Virus record (IMG/VR): IMGVR_UViG_3300030099_004074
Location: 1 to 27,179 of that record
Length of the DNA: 27,179 nt
Strand: one strand, 5' to 3'
Source: a virus
The number at the start of each line of letters is the position of its first letter. Position 1 is the stretch's first letter. This document shows, one piece after another, positions 17,489 to 25,077 of the stretch. The notes under the pieces were generated by a model. It was not told the origin of the DNA. It ran no database searches and saw only the letters and a list, made by a program, of their open reading frames with translations. The position numbers and the translations under genes were made by a program.

Positions 17489-18523
17489 CTAGTGAACTGT
17501 ACCTAGAATGAATACTCTTTTTTGTCCAGCAGTAGATGCATTTCGTACTAGACATCCATACATTACATCAGAAACAACTTTGGTTCCTAAGTAATCTATA
17601 TCATAATCGGCTTGCATTCTAATGTTTGAACTGTATGCAATGTGCATAGCTGACTTATGAACACAGTAACCAATCGGAGTCACATCATGGTCATCATCAC
17701 CAGCTGTACTATCCATATCAGTTCTTGCAGTTGTTACTGCATTTGACATAAGCACTGGAATTCCAAAAACAGTAGCAACTTGACCACTGTTAGCAAATCC
17801 TTGACCTAATGGAGAACCAGCAGTACCGTATGACAGCTGAACTAATCTAGCTAATCCAGCATAAGCTGTCGGTGATAATACTAAAGTCCAATTTGATGGG
17901 TCTTGGTCTTCTGCTAATATATTTTGCAACACTAAATCAAAATCAGCATTATTGGCCTCATATAGGTCACTACCCACATTGATAGAGTTTATATCTCCAT
18001 CAGCTGTTTGGCAAGATGCAAGAAGTTTGCCCTCTAGGTATGTATCAATTTCTTTAGCTAGGGCATAACCCATTTCTTGTGCATAAATATTCATTATATC
18101 ATAATTAGACTGAACCTTTAAAACATCTTCTACTAAGGTTGCTGAATACTTATGTTGGTCAACTTCTAAGGTAAGTTCAGTTTGAGCAGTCATATCGCTT
18201 CCGTATGCGCCTATTGGACTATTTATAGCTTTAGTTCCAGTAGCAACTTGGTCAAACTGAGGAATGTGAATCTTATCACCACCACTTGAAACAAATGCTG
18301 ATAAGTCATTACATAAATTAGCAAATACTAGTTTGTCTTTAAATGCTAATTCTACTGCTGGTGCCCATACTTCTGGTACGAAAACATCCCATGACCTATT
18401 TCCAGCTCCTACAGCTGTTTGGCCGAGTCCACCAGAGGTAATCTTATCAGTTGCTATATCATTAAGTACGTTACCCATAGGTCCATTTTGAACCCAGTTT
18501 TGAATATTATTTAAAAGTTTCAT
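17489..18523 (-). CDS. Major capsid protein (P22/HK97-fold type)
   Basis: A 344-aa protein, typical length for an HK97-fold coat. Residues about 42-72 (NRSWDVFVPEVWAPAVELAF, then KDKLVFANLC) and the C-terminal stretch RMQADYDIDYLGTKVVSDVM followed by YGCLVRNAS are the family signature of the P22-coat-like group. It follows the scaffold gene, has a strong AAGGAG site, and is followed by a hairpin. No N-terminal pro-domain or adjacent protease gene is seen, so assembly is probably guided by a separate scaffold, not by cleavage. Codon use is plainly more ordered (fewer rare runs) than in its neighbours, fitting high expression; that last point is an impression, not a count. Confidence 0.93.
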   Translation of the reverse strand: MKLLNNIQNWVQNGPMGNVLNDIATDKITSGGLGQTAVGAGNRSWDVFVPEVWAPAVELAFKDKLVFANLCNDLSAFVSSGGDKIHIPQFDQVATGTKAINSPIGAYGSDMTAQTELTLEVDQHKYSATLVEDVLKVQSNYDIMNIYAQEMGYALAKEIDTYLEGKLLASCQTADGDINSINVGSDLYEANNADFDLVLQNILAEDQDPSNWTLVLSPTAYAGLARLVQLSYGTAGSPLGQGFANSGQVATVFGIPVLMSNAVTTARTDMDSTAGDDDHDVTPIGYCVHKSAMHIAYSSNIRMQADYDIDYLGTKVVSDVMYGCLVRNASTAGQKRVFILGTVH

Positions 18524-18567
18524 TTAATCTCCTTCTGCTTTCGCAAAGGTTAATGTTAAATGATACT

Positions 18568-19113
18568 CTATTTTTTATTCATTAGCACCTGCGTATGCCA
18601 TTGTTTTCTTTCCTCTGCTGTCATATCTGAGTAAGATTTACTTGACGTACTATTTTTTACCATACTTGGTATATTTGGTATGTGCGCACCTTGAGGCTGT
18701 TGATTTTTTAAGGTTTTTTTATGAATATATTTTAGAGTATCTAAATCTTTACCAGCCAATTCCTCTCTATCCTCTTCTGGAAATTCCTCTAAAATATTTG
18801 TTTTTTCAGTTTCAAGATATGATGTATACTTATCTTTATATGTAGACAATTCTTTATTTTGTGATTTAAGTCTATCAATTAGTTCAGTCTGTTTACCTTC
18901 CTGAATCATTTTTTCTTCCTCATACTGATTTACTTTTAATCTAAGAGCATCTACCTCACTGACAGCATTTTGCTTTCCTGCTCGCTGTTTTTTAGAGTTT
19001 TCTATTTCCTGCAAATAGAGTGCTTTATAATCAGGTTGTGCTTCCTGTTGTGTTTGAGCAGTGCTCTGCTCCTCTGCTGACGTTGCCTGCTGGCTGTCGT
19101 TTTCTGTGTTCAT
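18568..19113 (-). CDS. Capsid scaffolding protein
   Basis: A 181-aa, Gln/Glu/Lys-rich, almost entirely helical protein just upstream of the capsid gene. A disordered start (NDSQQATSAEEQSTAQTQQE) is followed by a coiled coil from about residue 27 to 110 (VDALRLKVNQYEEEKMIQEG; LKSQNKELSTYKDKYTSYLE) and a C-terminal helix (SDMTAEERKQWHTQ). This composition, size and position are those of phage scaffolding proteins. AAGGAG lies five bases before the ATG. It is the first gene of the leftward structural operon, divergent from the large terminase. Confidence 0.82.
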   Translation of the reverse strand: MNTENDSQQATSAEEQSTAQTQQEAQPDYKALYLQEIENSKKQRAGKQNAVSEVDALRLKVNQYEEEKMIQEGKQTELIDRLKSQNKELSTYKDKYTSYLETEKTNILEEFPEEDREELAGKDLDTLKYIHKKTLKNQQPQGAHIPNIPSMVKNSTSSKSYSDMTAEERKQWHTQVLMNKK

Positions 19114-19189
19114 CTGAACTCCTTATAATATTTTGTTTAAAAATACAAGTAAAATTTATAAATTAAAATCAATATTTAAAACTAAATTT
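19114..19189. promoter_or_regulatory. Divergent intergenic region between scaffold and large terminase
   Basis: A 76-bp AT-rich gap between two genes that face away from each other, so each strand probably has a promoter here or is read from further away. On the plus strand TATAAT at 19124-19129 could be a -10 box, but no good -35 lies 16-18 bp upstream. On the minus strand TATAAA at 19155-19160 is equally unsupported. Both are low confidence. Confidence 0.3.
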
Positions 19190-20542
19190 ATGGAAAATGT
19201 CACAGATTATAAAAAAACTTGGTTTGATTTTATAGATTACAAGCCCCATAAAGGGCAAAAATTATTACATTATCCTCCAGGGGGTGAATATGACTATAAG
19301 AAAAATCCTGATGGTGTAAGGTTCACCGTTGCGTGTATGGGTAGACGTTGGGGTAAATCTCATTCCTGTGCAAAGGAAATCGAGGTAGCCCTAACTCAGC
19401 CTGGTAAGGTTGTTTGGAATGTTGCACCTAATTACAATACCAGTGAAAAAATATTTAGATTAGTATATGAAGATTTAGTTATTAAGAAAAAATTTAAGCC
19501 ATCAATGTATTCAGCAAGGGACCAAATATTAAAATTTGAATGGGCAGAAGGTGTAAGTGAGTTTCGAGGAAAATCTGCCGAGCACCCTACAGGTTTGATT
19601 GGTGAGGGTTGTGATTTAATAGTTATTGATGAGGCAAGTAAAATACCTAAGTTTCAAAGAATTTGGGAAATGTATTTGAGGCCCACATTGTCAGATAAAA
19701 AAGGTAGAGCAATTTTTATATCTACGCCTGATGGTTTTAATTATTTTTACGAACTATATAATCAAGGTAAAAAAAATAAAAATTGGTTTAGCTTAAACAG
19801 TCCGTCTACTGATAATGAGTATGCTTTTCCTTTAGGAGTAAATGACCCTGATATTATAGAGGCTAAAAATACTTTAAACAAAGATATATATAAACAAGAG
19901 TATGGTGCAAAGTTTACTGCGCTTTCTGGGGCCGTATATGGCGATTTTGAAAGAGATAATAATGTAGGTGATTATAAGGTTAATCGTGAGCTTCCTGTGT
20001 TTTTAGGTATAGATTTTGGATTTAGAGAGCCTGCTTGTTTGTTTGCACAAATAAAAAATATAGATAATTTATTACATGTATATATTGTAGATGAGTTAGT
20101 TCATATAAAAAATATAAGTGATAGAGATTTCTTTAGTCTTATAATTGAAAAAGGTTATAGATTAGGAAGGTGTTTTGGTGACCCAGCAGGGTATCAAATG
20201 CAAAGTTCTGTAGGAATGGGTAGTGCTCATATTTTTAGACAAATGATTGGCAAGCCTATCATGACTATGAAAGATAAGACCAGCAGGTCAATAGCTAGTG
20301 GAATAAATCACGTCAGAAATTTTATATTATCTGATAACAATATTTCAAGATTACACATAGATAAAAAATGTGAGGGATTGATTGAGGATATTGAATCATA
20401 CAGGTATCCAGATGATGAGGGAAAAAGCCTGAAAGAGCTGCCCTTAAAAGATGGAATACATGACCATTCTATGGATGCACTAAGATATTTATTGATTAAT
20501 CTTGACCCAATAAAACAACGTAAATTAACAAGGAATAATTAA
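19190..20542 (+). CDS. terL: Terminase large subunit
   Basis: A 450-aa packaging ATPase-nuclease. ATPase: Walker A GRRWGKS at residues 51-57, Walker B LIVIDEAS at 143-150 (Asp147-Glu148), and coupling motif STPDG at 179-182. Nuclease: first Asp in GIDFG (Asp275), a second acidic site in FGDPAGYQ (Asp331), and the C-terminal HDHSMDALRYLL (Asp425, Asp429). I start at the ATG at 19190-19192, since a TTG at 19133 would add a basic AT-derived extension. Neither start has a Shine-Dalgarno sequence. It leads the rightward operon; portal follows two bases after its stop. Partner small subunit is probably the HTH protein at 26141-26854 on the other strand. Confidence 0.95.
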   Translation: MENVTDYKKTWFDFIDYKPHKGQKLLHYPPGGEYDYKKNPDGVRFTVACMGRRWGKSHSCAKEIEVALTQPGKVVWNVAPNYNTSEKIFRLVYEDLVIKKKFKPSMYSARDQILKFEWAEGVSEFRGKSAEHPTGLIGEGCDLIVIDEASKIPKFQRIWEMYLRPTLSDKKGRAIFISTPDGFNYFYELYNQGKKNKNWFSLNSPSTDNEYAFPLGVNDPDIIEAKNTLNKDIYKQEYGAKFTALSGAVYGDFERDNNVGDYKVNRELPVFLGIDFGFREPACLFAQIKNIDNLLHVYIVDELVHIKNISDRDFFSLIIEKGYRLGRCFGDPAGYQMQSSVGMGSAHIFRQMIGKPIMTMKDKTSRSIASGINHVRNFILSDNNISRLHIDKKCEGLIEDIESYRYPDDEGKSLKELPLKDGIHDHSMDALRYLLINLDPIKQRKLTRNN

Positions 20543-20543
20543 T

Positions 20544-21899
20544 ATGATATTTAACAATAGTTACTCAACAAATCTTTTGGCAGAAGGTGTAAAATCAATG
20601 AAAGCTCAAAATTCTGCTGATAGGCGCAGTTTAGTTACAATGTTTTTAGATTATTATGATGGTGACAACACAAATCAATACATTCAGGATAAATTTGATA
20701 TAAATAATTTCCGTGAGGTGCCCTGCATGTCATTTAATATTACAAAACGTCTTATAGATAAGATGTCACGTACATATCAATTACCACCAAACAGAACATT
20801 AGCATCTGGAAATGACCAATATAAAAATCTTTCAAGATTTAAAAATTATAAAATGGGTCACGTTGAAAGAATGACAAATTTATTAGGTACCGTAGCCTTA
20901 CAAATTACAATGTCTGAGAATATGGGTGAGCCTGTTTTTAAGTATGAGCCGATATTATATTTTGACGTAACTACGTCAGAAATGAATCCATTGGAAATAA
21001 CATCAATACAATACCCAATATTTAACAATGTAGATGATGCAAGTCAGGGAAATGAAAAATTAACATTTGCATACTTTGATAATGAAAAATATATGGTTTT
21101 AGATAATGAAGATAATGTTATTGTTGAAGAACCAAATCCATATGGTAGGATTCCTTTTGTTTTTATAAACAGACAGCATTTGCTTGACTCTGTTTTTTCT
21201 GCAGGAGCATATGATATTGTAAGCTGCAATGAAATGCTTAATATATTATTTACAGAATTAAATTTAGGTTTACGTTTTCAGTTATTCGGTCAATATGTTG
21301 CATCAGGTGTATATGAAGATGAAAAGTTTGAAAGATGGGGTTCTGACCAAGTGATAACTGTCCCTGATGGTGTAGATGTAAAATTATTACAGCCTATGCC
21401 AAACGTGGATTCGGCATTGAAAGTAGCTCGTAGTATGGTAGAACTTGTAGCTACAAATAATCACATGTCGGTATCATTTGCAGAAACATCCAGGGACAGG
21501 CCCCAGTCAGGTATAGCATTAAAAATTAAAGAGTTAGAATCACATGAAAATTTTGAGAAAGAAAGAGAAAAGTGGTCGTTTTATGAGCAGGAAATATTTA
21601 TGTTAGAAAGAGTAATCGCATCTGTAAGTGGTATAAATATTGGAAATAATTTAGGCGTTGATTTTAAAGAACCAGAATATCCACAAACTGCAGCCGATGA
21701 GATTGCAATGCAACAGTTTTTATTAGATAATGACTTAACTACAAAAGCTAAAATATTAAGAAAGTATAATAAAGATTTAACATTAGAGCAGGCAGAACAA
21801 GAAGTTAAAGAAAATAAGGAATCTAATGAGCAAGGAAAAGAACAGCAAGCACCAGGATTATTTGGTCGAATTGGTCAAAGACCTCCAACAGCTCAATAA
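20544..21899 (+). CDS. Portal protein
   Basis: A 451-aa portal, the ring at one head vertex through which DNA passes. Position directly after the large terminase (gap of one base) and length are right; the central block NPYGRIPFVFINRQHLLDSV and then DIVSCNEMLNILFTELNLGL match the P-[VI]-x-F-x-N pattern followed by the stem helices of SPP1-like portals. The end is a Lys/Glu/Gln-rich helix and disordered tail (KKENKE region, GLFGRIGQRPP). Its last 74 bases overlap another gene in a different frame. Confidence 0.9.
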   Translation: MIFNNSYSTNLLAEGVKSMKAQNSADRRSLVTMFLDYYDGDNTNQYIQDKFDINNFREVPCMSFNITKRLIDKMSRTYQLPPNRTLASGNDQYKNLSRFKNYKMGHVERMTNLLGTVALQITMSENMGEPVFKYEPILYFDVTTSEMNPLEITSIQYPIFNNVDDASQGNEKLTFAYFDNEKYMVLDNEDNVIVEEPNPYGRIPFVFINRQHLLDSVFSAGAYDIVSCNEMLNILFTELNLGLRFQLFGQYVASGVYEDEKFERWGSDQVITVPDGVDVKLLQPMPNVDSALKVARSMVELVATNNHMSVSFAETSRDRPQSGIALKIKELESHENFEKEREKWSFYEQEIFMLERVIASVSGINIGNNLGVDFKEPEYPQTAADEIAMQQFLLDNDLTTKAKILRKYNKDLTLEQAEQEVKENKESNEQGKEQQAPGLFGRIGQRPPTAQ

Positions 21900-22080
21900 G
21901 GTAACACCTGAGATATTACAAGCTGATATAAAAGAGGTAGTAAAAAATCCTGAACAATATGCTTTAGATTTTGCAGAGATTATTTTTACTAGACATTTTT
22001 CCAGATATATAAAAGCATATAAATTAGGTGAAGATTTTGCGAAACGTAATATGAAAATGAAAAGTAAAATTAATGATTAA
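21826..22080 (+). CDS. Small helical protein overlapping the portal gene end (84 aa)
   Basis: An 84-aa protein, charged and helical (DYLVELVKDLQQLNKVTPEI; DFAEIIFTRHFSRYIKAYKL). It starts at an ATG with AAGGA five bases upstream, inside the portal coding region, sharing 74 bases in another frame, and its stop overlaps the next start. Long overlaps of this kind occur in densely packed phages. Role unknown; location between portal and head completion gene suggests head morphogenesis. Confidence 0.65.
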   Translation: MSKEKNSKHQDYLVELVKDLQQLNKVTPEILQADIKEVVKNPEQYALDFAEIIFTRHFSRYIKAYKLGEDFAKRNMKMKSKIND

Positions 22081-22531
22081 AAAAACTTTTAATTTAAAAA
22101 AACTAGTTGCTACAATGCCTGACCTCTTTAAAAATTTTGTAAATACACATGGGGCAGGCATAAATGATGCAATCCAAAACGGAATTGATTTATCTGAAGA
22201 TATACATGGCCGACCATTTAAATCTATGAGTCCTGTGACTGAGGCAATACGTAATAGAAAAAGTACAGGAAATAAGCTGCTAGATGAATCTGGAGAAATG
22301 AGAAAAACAAAATTAGAAAAAGCTACAAGGGATAATCTTGTTTTTTCAATTACAAATGTTGGTAAAAATAGTGATGGTGAATATTATGGAACATTTCATA
22401 ATACAGGTGATGGTGTTCCTAAAAGAGAATGGTTTGGTATCCCCAAAGAAAGTAAGCCTGGAGGTTCAGATTATAACAAAAGAAAAGAGGTTTTGCTGCG
22501 TATGATAAGACAGGCCTGGAGAAAATATTAA
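22073..22531 (+). CDS. Phage virion morphogenesis protein (Mu gpG / tail completion-like)
   Basis: A 152-aa protein. Residues about 46-80 (GRPFKSMSPVTEAIRNRKST, then LLDESGEMRKTKL) and later DGVPKREWFGIP follow the pattern of Mu gpG-type virion morphogenesis proteins (R-P-[FW] ... L-x-x-[ST]-G-x-[LM]-x-x-[ST]; F-[LM]-G-[IL]). The gene directly precedes a MuF protein, and in Mu-like phages genes F and G are adjacent. It overlaps the upstream stop by eight bases and shares a base with the MuF start. Likely head or tail completion. Confidence 0.65.
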   Translation: MIKKTFNLKKLVATMPDLFKNFVNTHGAGINDAIQNGIDLSEDIHGRPFKSMSPVTEAIRNRKSTGNKLLDESGEMRKTKLEKATRDNLVFSITNVGKNSDGEYYGTFHNTGDGVPKREWFGIPKESKPGGSDYNKRKEVLLRMIRQAWRKY

Positions 22532-24012
22532 TGGCTAAATTGGATGATTATAAGGATTTATGGGGTGAGGATTTTGGTGAGCTTGTAAAGTTGTTTAGGG
22601 CAGGGGTAACTCCTGAATTAGAAAATTTACTAGTTGGAATTGTTGATTCTATGGTATTTGATGCCAGGTCATTTGCTTTAAATATAGAAAAGTCTGTAGC
22701 TAATATGGCTCAGACTGGTATGTCTATGAATTTAATCGAAGATGTTTTGACTGAAGATATGCAGACAGGTGGTAAAATATTTGGGCAGCTTAGAAACAAT
22801 ATTAAAGAAACTACAGCTAAAGCTATAAATCAATCTTCTAGGTTAGGTCAATATTCTACTTACTTTGCTAATCCTGAATTACTTATGGACTCACCTAGTG
22901 AATCAAAACCAATGAAATTTATGTGGGTAACGGTAGCAGGTCATAAGGTTTGTAGAGATTGCATATCAAGGTCAGGAAGAATAAAAACTTTTGATGAATG
23001 GTCTACTGATGGATTACCTGGAGCAGGTCAGACAGTATGTGGTGGATATTGCTATTGCATCATAGACCCTATTGGTCAAATGGATGAAAAGATTGATGCA
23101 CCAGTTGAGCCTGAGGTAAATGCTGAATCAGCAAAGTCATCTGAAAATATAGCTTTAGCATCACTTGGAGATTTAAGTCCACAGCAAATGAAACTATATA
23201 AAAAAGCATTTGATTTAGATTCTGATAATGCTGTTGGACTTTTAAAAAGAAAAGGTTTGACAAAAGCTGAGGCATTAAAACAAATCGCTGACCATCGATT
23301 GAAATTACAATCAGTTAAACGTGATACAAGGAGTTTATATTTTAATTCTGAATCTGGAAGATATGTTAGAGATAGAGCTATCTTACATTCCAGGATTGCA
23401 AGAACAATCGTACAAGAGGGCAAGATAGCAAAGACAGGCAGGCCTGATTTCTTAATGACTGGTGGAGTTCCAGGTGCTGGTAAATCTACGATGCTAGAAA
23501 AAGCATTTGGAGTATCTGAAAGCAGACCACATAGATTTGTACATGTGGACAGTGACAGAATAAAAGGTATGCTTGCAGCTTTTGATGATACTAAAATTAC
23601 ATGGAACGCAGGACTATATCATGAAGAGGCAGACAGTATTATTAAAATGATATTCCAACAAAGCTACAATCAAAGACGGCATATACTGTTTGATGGTACA
23701 ATGAAAACTGGACCTAAAATGGTAAAGTTTTTGGATTGGTTTTCTACTACAGGTGGATACAGGCCCTTGCTTGGATTTGTAGATGTTAATGTAGATATAG
23801 CTATTGAAAGAGCTATTGCACGTTCTTTAAATAATGGTAGATTTGTAGAGCCAGCTTACATATTAACACACCTAGGAAAAAATAGAAAAAGCTATGAACT
23901 TTTAAAATCTAAATTTCCTGAAATGGAATATGTTATGTTTGACAATAATGTATTTGGTCGAGAGCCTAAACTATTAGAGGCTAGCTCGTTTTTTGATTTT
24001 CTTAATCCGTAG
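22531..24012 (+). CDS. MuF-type minor head protein fused to a zeta-toxin-like kinase
   Basis: A 493-aa two-part protein. Residues 1-185: helical MuF/SPP1-gp7-like head protein; the conserved block is WVTVAGHKVCRDC (residues 132-144), then GLPGAGQTVCGGYCYCII, with cysteines 141, 144, 170, 174 and 176 as a probable zinc site. Residues 216-300: helical linker and RYVRDRAILHSRIART, the usual lead-in to zeta toxins. Residues 308-475: P-loop kinase, Walker A GGVPGAGKST (311-320, Lys318), HVDSDRIKGM (Asp340, Asp342), HILFDGTMKT (Asp388, where zeta toxins usually have Glu), and ERAIARSL (lid arginines). Zeta toxins phosphorylate UDP-N-acetylglucosamine. MuF proteins enter the head and can carry C-terminal toxins (MuF polymorphic toxins). 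Delivery with DNA is inference. Confidence 0.85.
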   Translation: MAKLDDYKDLWGEDFGELVKLFRAGVTPELENLLVGIVDSMVFDARSFALNIEKSVANMAQTGMSMNLIEDVLTEDMQTGGKIFGQLRNNIKETTAKAINQSSRLGQYSTYFANPELLMDSPSESKPMKFMWVTVAGHKVCRDCISRSGRIKTFDEWSTDGLPGAGQTVCGGYCYCIIDPIGQMDEKIDAPVEPEVNAESAKSSENIALASLGDLSPQQMKLYKKAFDLDSDNAVGLLKRKGLTKAEALKQIADHRLKLQSVKRDTRSLYFNSESGRYVRDRAILHSRIARTIVQEGKIAKTGRPDFLMTGGVPGAGKSTMLEKAFGVSESRPHRFVHVDSDRIKGMLAAFDDTKITWNAGLYHEEADSIIKMIFQQSYNQRRHILFDGTMKTGPKMVKFLDWFSTTGGYRPLLGFVDVNVDIAIERAIARSLNNGRFVEPAYILTHLGKNRKSYELLKSKFPEMEYVMFDNNVFGREPKLLEASSFFDFLNP

Positions 24013-24202
24013 GCTCTTCAAAATCTTCGAGGTCCTCAAACTCTCCATCGACTCCATTATCTAAATTATCATACTCAGATAGCTTGTCATCTTTGACAAA
24101 CATATCACGCAAGTCATCTAGTAATGTATCTTCTGGGTCAATGAGCTGACCATTCTTATCTAGCTTACGTTTGTTTGGTAATTGGTCACCAGTGTATGGC
24201 AT
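24002..24202 (-). CDS. Small acidic protein, 3' end overlapping the MuF-zeta gene (66 aa)
   Basis: A 66-aa protein with about 24 Asp/Glu, especially in the last 30 residues (VDGEFEDLEDFEEPTD). It begins MPYTGDQLPNKRK and has AGAGGT six bases before the ATG. Its stop lies inside the last codons of the converging MuF-zeta gene (11-base overlap). No family recognised. A DNA-mimic-like or antitoxin role for the neighbouring kinase is possible, but it is not in the same operon as the toxin and nothing shows such activity. Confidence 0.6.
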   Translation of the reverse strand: MPYTGDQLPNKRKLDKNGQLIDPEDTLLDDLRDMFVKDDKLSEYDNLDNGVDGEFEDLEDFEEPTD

Positions 24203-24271: not shown

Positions 24272-24472
24272 TTATCTGCAAATTTCACAATTACTCCTAT
24301 TGCAATCACACGTACATAGTCTTTTGTCATCTTCTCCTTTTAAAAGTATTGCTTTTAATTCAAATATTATATGGGACACTAGAACTCTACTTTCATTTGA
24401 ATGTTGCTTTGGCTGTATTGATTCAAAATGTTTAATTCTATCTTCTATAAGTTCTTTATAATAAGAATCCAT
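24272..24472 (-). CDS. Small protein with Cys cluster (66 aa)
   Basis: A 66-aa protein: a helical start (SYYKELIEDRIKHFESIQPK) and a C-terminal run RLCTCDCNRSNCEICR with five cysteines in 14 residues, which could bind a metal. Its ATG overlaps the stop of the LPD29-like gene (TAATG), so the two are cotranslated, and GGGGG precedes it. Role unknown. Confidence 0.6.
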   Translation of the reverse strand: MDSYYKELIEDRIKHFESIQPKQHSNESRVLVSHIIFELKAILLKGEDDKRLCTCDCNRSNCEICR

Positions 24473-25077
24473 TATGCTACCCCCATTTTTACGATGCTTG
24501 GTTTTTCGTTATAAGCTATATCATATAATTCCTGGCACACATATCTAGCCATTCCAGGGTCACCATTGATGTGCTGGTCATCTTCCCATCTTCTAGTATT
24601 AAAACAGCCAGTTCCATCGCTATATTCGCATATCCCTATTAATCCCATGCACTGTGGATATTTCTTCTCAATATGGGCCAATACGGCCTTTAAAACACCA
24701 ACTGTACATTCTTTATGAACAAAGATATAATTGCACATGAAAGATACAATTTCAGCACCCTCAGGTAGCTTGCTTTCGTGTGGTGGTACATAGCCACCAG
24801 AGTCTGTTGTTCCACTGCTTTTATATAAACATACTTGACCGTCAGGCAGTATCATGTGACTAACGTGATATTCCATATCAATCATTCCGTCAAATCCACC
24901 ACCCTCATATTGATTTACTATTTCCTGGACAGCTTTTTTACCAGGACCATTTGTATATCTGATATCGATTCTACCATGGTCACTACCAATCCTGACAGAG
25001 AATTTAGTACCAGGAAACTCCTGCTTTAATCGTTTTCTTATCATCTGAGCTTGTTCTTTACAGTGTATATATCGCAT
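24472..25077 (-). CDS. LPD29-like (large polyvalent protein-associated) domain protein (201 aa)
   Basis: A 201-aa protein whose first ~80 residues (EQAQMIRKRLKQEFPGTKFS, then VRIGSDHGRIDIRYTNGP, EGGGFDGMIDM) match the A-x-x-I-R-x-x-L-K-x-x-F-P-G-x-K-F-S-V-R pattern of a domain I know as LPD29, found in mobile element and phage polyvalent proteins. Its molecular function is not known. A C-terminal part is Cys-rich (MCNYIFVHKECT; GLIGICEYSDGTG). AAGGGGG lies eight bases before the ATG. It is followed by a coupled Cys-cluster gene. Confidence 0.6.
   Translation of the reverse strand: MRYIHCKEQAQMIRKRLKQEFPGTKFSVRIGSDHGRIDIRYTNGPGKKAVQEIVNQYEGGGFDGMIDMEYHVSHMILPDGQVCLYKSSGTTDSGGYVPPHESKLPEGAEIVSFMCNYIFVHKECTVGVLKAVLAHIEKKYPQCMGLIGICEYSDGTGCFNTRRWEDDQHINGDPGMARYVCQELYDIAYNEKPSIVKMGVA

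Follow-up and report, generated by a model that had tools for sequence, protein, structure and literature searches.

A MuF-type head protein ending in a zeta/AvrRxo1-type kinase, a candidate virion-carried enzyme

Why would a viral head protein end in a kinase? This question is raised by a gene found at positions 22531–24012 (+ strand) of the IMG/VR virus record IMGVR_UViG_3300030099_004074, of which the whole stretch of 27,179 bases was analyzed and is hereafter called the window. The gene encodes a protein of 493 amino acids, in which an N-terminal part resembling the MuF minor head proteins is followed by a P-loop kinase of the zeta toxin superfamily. We consider it probable, at roughly 0.6 for the reading as a whole, that the product travels in the virion as a small-nucleotide kinase and acts soon after entry.

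The frame opens with ATG and is uninterrupted. The first-pass annotation, which was made from the letters of the window, read the gene as a MuF-like head protein joined to a kinase of the zeta superfamily, and this view is borne out by the intact frame, the match to PF06414 (Zeta_toxin) and the predicted fold. The same annotation raised the possibility that a frameshift separates the two halves in the real assembly. No such frameshift was seen, and the relatives from independent metagenome contigs carry the two halves in one frame. These relatives were recovered by an alignment-based scan of viral contigs that yielded 75 loci with the kinase (cited below by locus numbers such as L006), whereas scans that used one sequence directly as the query (whole protein, kinase half or terminase) retrieved no relatives. 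Eight of the loci (L006–L013) encode full-length orthologues that are 37–53% identical to the window protein and contain both halves in a single frame. L006 and L007 are identical and L010 differs from L011 by 1 base, the eight loci representing six distinct sequences. Together with the window, they make up nine records and seven distinct full-length sequences sharing the same architecture. The G+C content is 36% in the MuF half and in the kinase half alike. The same single frame in independent contigs and the equal G+C of the two halves rule out an assembly artefact, a chimera or a frameshift, and the fusion is a stable gene.

The C-terminal part (residues about 271–493; 23340–24009, + strand) was assigned by AlphaFold2, Foldseek and the profile match to the zeta toxin structure 1gvn. 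PF06414 matched residues 300–462 of the window protein with 65.8 bits (E 4.6e-18; cut-off 22.3), and the orthologues and fusion proteins tested exceeded the cut-off as well. PF06414 matches were also found in 14 of 14 control genomes, and the Pfam name alone is thus unspecific. No match was found when the whole protein was compared with PDB sequences by phmmer. A profile search of PDB sequences retrieved zeta toxin 1gvn (72 bits), Pnkp1 (56 bits), PezT (54 bits) and AvrRxo1 (47 bits). The AlphaFold2 model of the kinase half, built from 37 sequences, had a mean predicted local distance difference test score (pLDDT) of 91.9, and its top Foldseek matches in PDB were 3q8x, 1gvn, 2p5t and 4z8q/4z8u, namely zeta toxin, PezT and AvrRxo1. 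Normalized by query length, the template modelling score (TM-score) was 0.70 for zeta toxin (1gvn) and highest, 0.78, for AvrRxo1 (4z8u). We regard the identity of the kinase as settled, because the structural and PDB-profile comparisons go beyond the unspecific Pfam label; the structure prediction that the first-pass annotation proposed for this half gave a confident fold of the zeta/PezT/AvrRxo1 type.

The translation confirmed the motif positions noted earlier, namely the Walker A motif GGVPGAGKST at residues 311–320, Asp340 and Asp342, and DGT at residues 388–390. Across 37 viral homologues, K318, D342, H364, E366, D388, R431 and R437 were invariant, K345 was kept in 36 and T390 in 33. The equivalents of zeta K46, D67, K70 and R158 are conserved as K318, D342, K345 and R431, the pairing of R158 with R431 being our own assignment from the profile alignment. 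The catalytic residues are thus near-invariant in the 37 homologues, and the kinase activity is therefore under selection. The Glu of the zeta EGT motif is Asp in the window protein, which had been taken earlier as a reason to doubt activity. This worry can be answered, since Asp occupies the position in 41 of 41 non-redundant viral domains; Pnkp1 and AvrRxo1 also have Asp there, whereas zeta toxin and PezT have Glu. We therefore reject a loss of activity through the Glu-to-Asp change, and the Asp of DGT is a feature of the clade rather than a sign of decay. In the alignment with AvrRxo1, two further motifs on either side of the P-loop, R...LH on the N-terminal side and HxES on the C-terminal side, matched the viral clade; HxES was missing from zeta toxin in its alignment. 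The kinase half was 61% identical to that of L006, compared with 50% for the MuF half, and the corresponding values for L008 were 44% and 41%, so that conservation of the kinase half equals or exceeds that of the MuF half.

Set beside zeta toxin and PezT (1gvn, 3q8x, 2p5t), the window kinase has the same fold, ATP site, catalytic Asp and Thr of the EGT motif, but it differs in the Asp for Glu, in the absence of two contacts to UDP-N-acetylglucosamine (UDP-GlcNAc or UNAG), in the lack of an epsilon antitoxin and in the fusion to a head protein. With AvrRxo1 (4z8q, 4z8u), it shares R...LH, HxE and the Asp at the EGT site, and in both proteins the ATP site is kept and the UNAG contacts are lost. 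AvrRxo1, however, is not a virion protein but an effector that bacteria secrete and that is paired with an inhibitor.

The N-terminal part (22531–23100, + strand) is MuF/SPP1 gp7-like, judging from the profile comparisons and the invariant cysteines. The five-cysteine site that had been placed in residues 132–178 is present as Cys 141, 144, 170, 174 and 176, and all five cysteines were invariant in the nine homologous records. Of the two profile matches expected for the fusion, the one to PF06414 was obtained, but PF04233 (MuF) scored 14.6 bits against the window protein, below its cut-off of 29.6. The closest relative, L006, matched PF04233 with 26.1 bits (E 1.5e-5) over profile positions 3–106 of 112, and TIGR01641 with 21.1 bits, below the cut-off of 39.65. 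In the profile-profile comparison by hhalign, the N-terminal part matched clear MuF domains with a probability of 93.7 and an E-value of 1.9e-7. The gene adjoins the portal and other head genes in the window and the relatives, the position of a MuF gene. A full-length AlphaFold2 model from nine sequences was poor (pLDDT 55.5), leaving the MuF fold without structural confirmation.

The pairing of the two domains was considered undescribed in the first-pass annotation, and this was wrong: zeta-toxin-like kinases fused to MuF in phages were reported by Iyer et al. (2017; PMC5512222), who predicted delivery in the virion. The pairing and the predicted delivery are the same as in the window; on the other hand, no family was analyzed in the main text of that paper, and the cell-wall sugar kinase activity assigned there is not favoured by the residues of the window protein. 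As for the earlier suggestion that such a fusion is present in virions, published mass spectrometry bears it out for a relative in the cyanophage P-SS2. The P-SS2 protein ACT65592 matched MuF with 35.6 bits at residues 154–270 and Zeta with 77.8 bits at residues 427–597, and its coordinates (17648–22147) are those of open reading frame (ORF) 030, for which a mean of 96.5 peptides, counted per ORF, was recovered from purified virions and which was labelled as the major capsid protein (Sullivan et al., 2009; PMC2784084). Thus, a MuF-zeta protein is in the particles of a cultured phage. ORF 030, annotated as a major capsid or minor head protein, resembles the window protein in having MuF followed by zeta in one protein, the DGT motif and a location in the head region, and it was detected in virions. 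It differs in its length of 1499 amino acids with a long extra C-terminus, and only the kinases are comparable, at 27% identity. No literature linking the fusions of Iyer et al. (2017) with the virion peptides of P-SS2 was found in a search that left subscription journals mostly outside.

The kinase recurs on other head proteins. A MuF domain scoring over the Pfam cut-off and the kinase occurred in one frame in at least nine contigs, some of which are of one lineage, and the fusion was seen on the protein itself for L018, L022, L023, L027, L031 and L032. In three of them, L022 (3877–9081), L027 (57–4295) and L032 (1623–4055), MuF is joined to two tandem zeta-type kinase domains. Portal proteins of two families, PF04860 and PF06381, are fused to the kinase in L017 (395–4189), in L070 (2979–6074), where a NUDIX domain lies between the portal and the kinase, and in L015 (682–6657), which additionally contains ART-PolyVal (below the cut-off) and DUF7178. 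In L059 (4387–6531) and L062 (5254–6693), the kinase is combined with an XkdF-like prohead protease (Peptidase_S78_2). As far as we found, the fusions to portals and XkdF-type proteases are new. Every fusion partner is a head protein, as expected of particle cargo, and the MuF, portal and protease fusions attach this candidate effector domain to virion genes. The best viral structural match to the kinase in BFVD was A0A6J5LTH6 (TM-score 0.83, 28% identity), a phage protein of 1134 amino acids; it is named Anti-CBASS protein Acb1, which by the name alone suggests a co-fused anti-CBASS domain.

We propose the following scenario for the virion-carried kinase. The MuF-type minor head protein, ending in a complete P-loop kinase of the zeta/AvrRxo1 superfamily, would be made along with the portal and head proteins and then built into the virion. 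Together with the DNA, the kinase would reach the next cell, either entering it or being exposed to it, and early in infection it may use host ATP to phosphorylate a hydroxyl group on a small metabolite of the nucleotide type; this action may help the take-over of the cell or counter a defence. As judged from sequences and their models, the fusion, the operon, the fold, the conserved catalytic residues and the recurrent grafting onto head proteins are in place. Presence in virions is documented for a distant relative, that of P-SS2, whereas injection, an action early in infection and the kind of substrate are our inferences.

Several points weigh against this scenario. The case for the window protein and its close family is computational, and the MuF score of the window protein itself lies under the cut-off. 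The per-ORF count of the P-SS2 peptides does not by itself show the presence or the intactness of the zeta part in the particle, and the P-SS2 kinase is only about 27% identical to that of the window. The substrate is reached by elimination only, and a role at assembly time retains some probability (see below). A more specific version, which we advance tentatively and with low probability, holds that the kinases with DxT, HxE and RxxxH form a distinct, virus-specific clade of the zeta/AvrRxo1 type that may serve as movable head cargo on the MuF, portal and prohead protease proteins of phages and archaeal viruses, phosphorylating NAD or a nucleotide signal instead of UDP-GlcNAc as a pre-made counter-defence at entry; the name of the BFVD relative, Anti-CBASS protein Acb1, and the NUDIX domain between portal and kinase in L070 can be cited for it.

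The first of the alternatives is that the protein phosphorylates UNAG and thereby weakens the cell wall as the virus enters. This activity was put forward for the MuF-zeta fusions by Iyer et al. (2017; PMC5512222), who suggested that the kinases aid injection through wall weakening, and the closest PDB profile match is a UNAG-bound zeta toxin. The UNAG contacts of zeta toxin are D67, E100, T118, R120 and T128 (Mutti et al.), which correspond to D342, K372, T390, K392 and F400 of the window protein in a sequence-profile alignment. The catalytic base D67 and T118 are kept, and a basic residue is retained at R120 as Lys. Against this, the ribose contact E100 is replaced by Lys and the uracil contact T128 by Phe, the two columns are mostly Lys and Lys/Arg in the 37 relatives, and T390 is replaced by Val in four of these. 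By this alignment, the window protein has neither the full set of UNAG contacts nor the Glu of EGT. AvrRxo1, which kept the ATP site and lost UNAG binding, phosphorylates NAD (nicotinamide adenine dinucleotide) to 3'-NADP.

The same type of kinase is carried by Haloarcula viruses. HVTV-1 gp115 and HCTV-5 gp114 are encoded among the head genes, close to a MuF/gpF-like gene but separate from it; gp115 carries an ART domain and gp114 a ParB domain, and HVTV-1 has Val in place of the motif's Thr. Haloarchaea have no peptidoglycan. UDP-GlcNAc, the substrate implied in the first-pass annotation, is therefore possible but not favoured, because the ribose and uracil contacts are lost, AvrRxo1 makes 3'-NADP and relatives occur in Haloarcula viruses; we assign the UNAG kinase a low probability.

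A second alternative is that the kinase acts at the portal vertex in the producing cell, while the head is assembled or the DNA packaged, and is not an injected effector. The fusion partners, MuF, portal and prohead protease, are all assembly proteins, and the part fused to the XkdF-type protease could be a scaffold-like part that is proteolysed. However, the kinase is probably dispensable for assembly, because most MuF and portal proteins, such as those of the Flavobacterium phage lotta8-1, have none. The catalytic core is of the small-molecule kinase type, and the co-fused domains in the relatives (ART-PolyVal, NUDIX and, in HVTV-1, ADPrib_exo_Tox) are effector-like. We find this explanation doubtful.

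Thirdly, the protein might be a polynucleotide 5'-kinase that acts on entry to repair or modify the ends of RNA or DNA, for instance against anticodon nucleases. Pnkp1 of the RNA repair complex is the second-best PDB profile match and shares both the Asp at the zeta-Glu position and a GxxxP motif with the window kinase. Yet zeta toxin, PezT and AvrRxo1 outrank polynucleotide kinases in the structural comparison, the invariant H364/E366 and the R282/H286 motif fit AvrRxo1 and not Pnkp1, and neither a ligase nor a phosphatase was found as a partner domain, which together make this activity distinctly unlikely.

Finally, we think it very improbable that the fusion is a MuF polymorphic toxin which bacteria or lysogens use against one another and which has a matching immunity protein: MuF at the N-terminus followed by an enzyme that varies is reminiscent of the architecture of such toxins (PMC5576092, PMC3482391) and a small gene converges on the 3' end of the fusion, but no kinase-specific ORF is conserved among the relatives, a family-specific pattern scan of 84,980 bacterial and archaeal genomes found no relative, PADLOC returned no matches, and neither zeta nor kinase is mentioned in the main text of PMC5576092. 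The kinship to these toxins suggested in the first-pass annotation is thus not supported, no immunity gene being evident and no such relative having come up in the bacterial genomes scanned. The kinase-pattern scan of genomes gave six matches, mostly in metagenome-assembled contigs. The small convergent gene (24002–24202, - strand) overlaps the 3' end of the fusion and is kept at this place in eight of the nine records. We rejected it as an antitoxin or immunity gene, since its homologue in lotta8-1 adjoins a MuF gene with no zeta part, and it is a general neighbour of MuF. Its family has CxxC...C and FPxxIPxDI motifs; the window copy has no cysteines and has lost the cysteine-rich body. No candidate for an epsilon-type antitoxin beside the kinase was conserved across the nine records. 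A toxin-antitoxin or lysogen-competition role is unlikely, since no antitoxin candidate remains and the family-specific patterns retrieved nothing from the bacterial genomes.

An enzyme that is already packaged in the virion can act ahead of any phage gene expression, and the virion-carried kinase considered here belongs to a type common to phages and haloarchaeal viruses. The MuF-zeta kind itself had already been described; what is added here is the virion evidence from P-SS2, the clade-wide Asp, the doubt on UDP-GlcNAc, and the joining of the kinase to portals and proteases. The residue analysis points to NAD and nucleotides as candidate substrates alongside UDP-GlcNAc. Since particles of the cultured P-SS2 contain a MuF-zeta protein, the role of a 'zeta toxin' in phage heads is directly testable.

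The fusion gene belongs to a cassette that runs, in the window and the relatives, in the order of terminase large subunit, portal, small protein, gpG-like protein and MuF-zeta, with additional small genes in some relatives. On the + strand of the window, the terminase large subunit lies at 19133–20542 (PHROG 2, E 2.2e-42) and the portal protein at 20544–21899 (PHROG 145, E 4.8e-5), the latter being 41–48% identical in seven relatives. The small conserved protein of 84 amino acids between the portal and gpG-like genes (21826–22080, +) was found in eight of the nine records, including the window. The Mu gpG-like virion morphogenesis protein (22073–22531, +) adjoins MuF-zeta in all nine records, and its gene has 1 base in common with the fusion gene. 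Phage_tail_S scored 20.2 bits against the gpG-like protein of the window and 22.9 bits against that of L006, both under the cut-off of 24.3.

After the kinase, L010 (6700–7494) and L011 (2352–3146) have an extra C-terminal part with YRG, STS and EME motifs. A likeness of this extension to ADP-ribosyltransferases, noticed by eye, found no support in Pfam, PDB and phage searches and is not claimed. The major capsid protein of the window (17489–18523; PHROG 267, E 2.1e-36) is encoded on the - strand. The head genes are thus split, with the terminase, portal and MuF genes on the + strand and the capsid and tail genes on the - strand, and the two sets point away from each other across a gap of some 20 bases (19113–19133). 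This split layout is common to L007 and L009 and absent from the other relatives. Near the head genes, a stand-alone gene at 24472–25077 (- strand) matched LPD29, a large polyvalent protein associated domain, with 69 bits.
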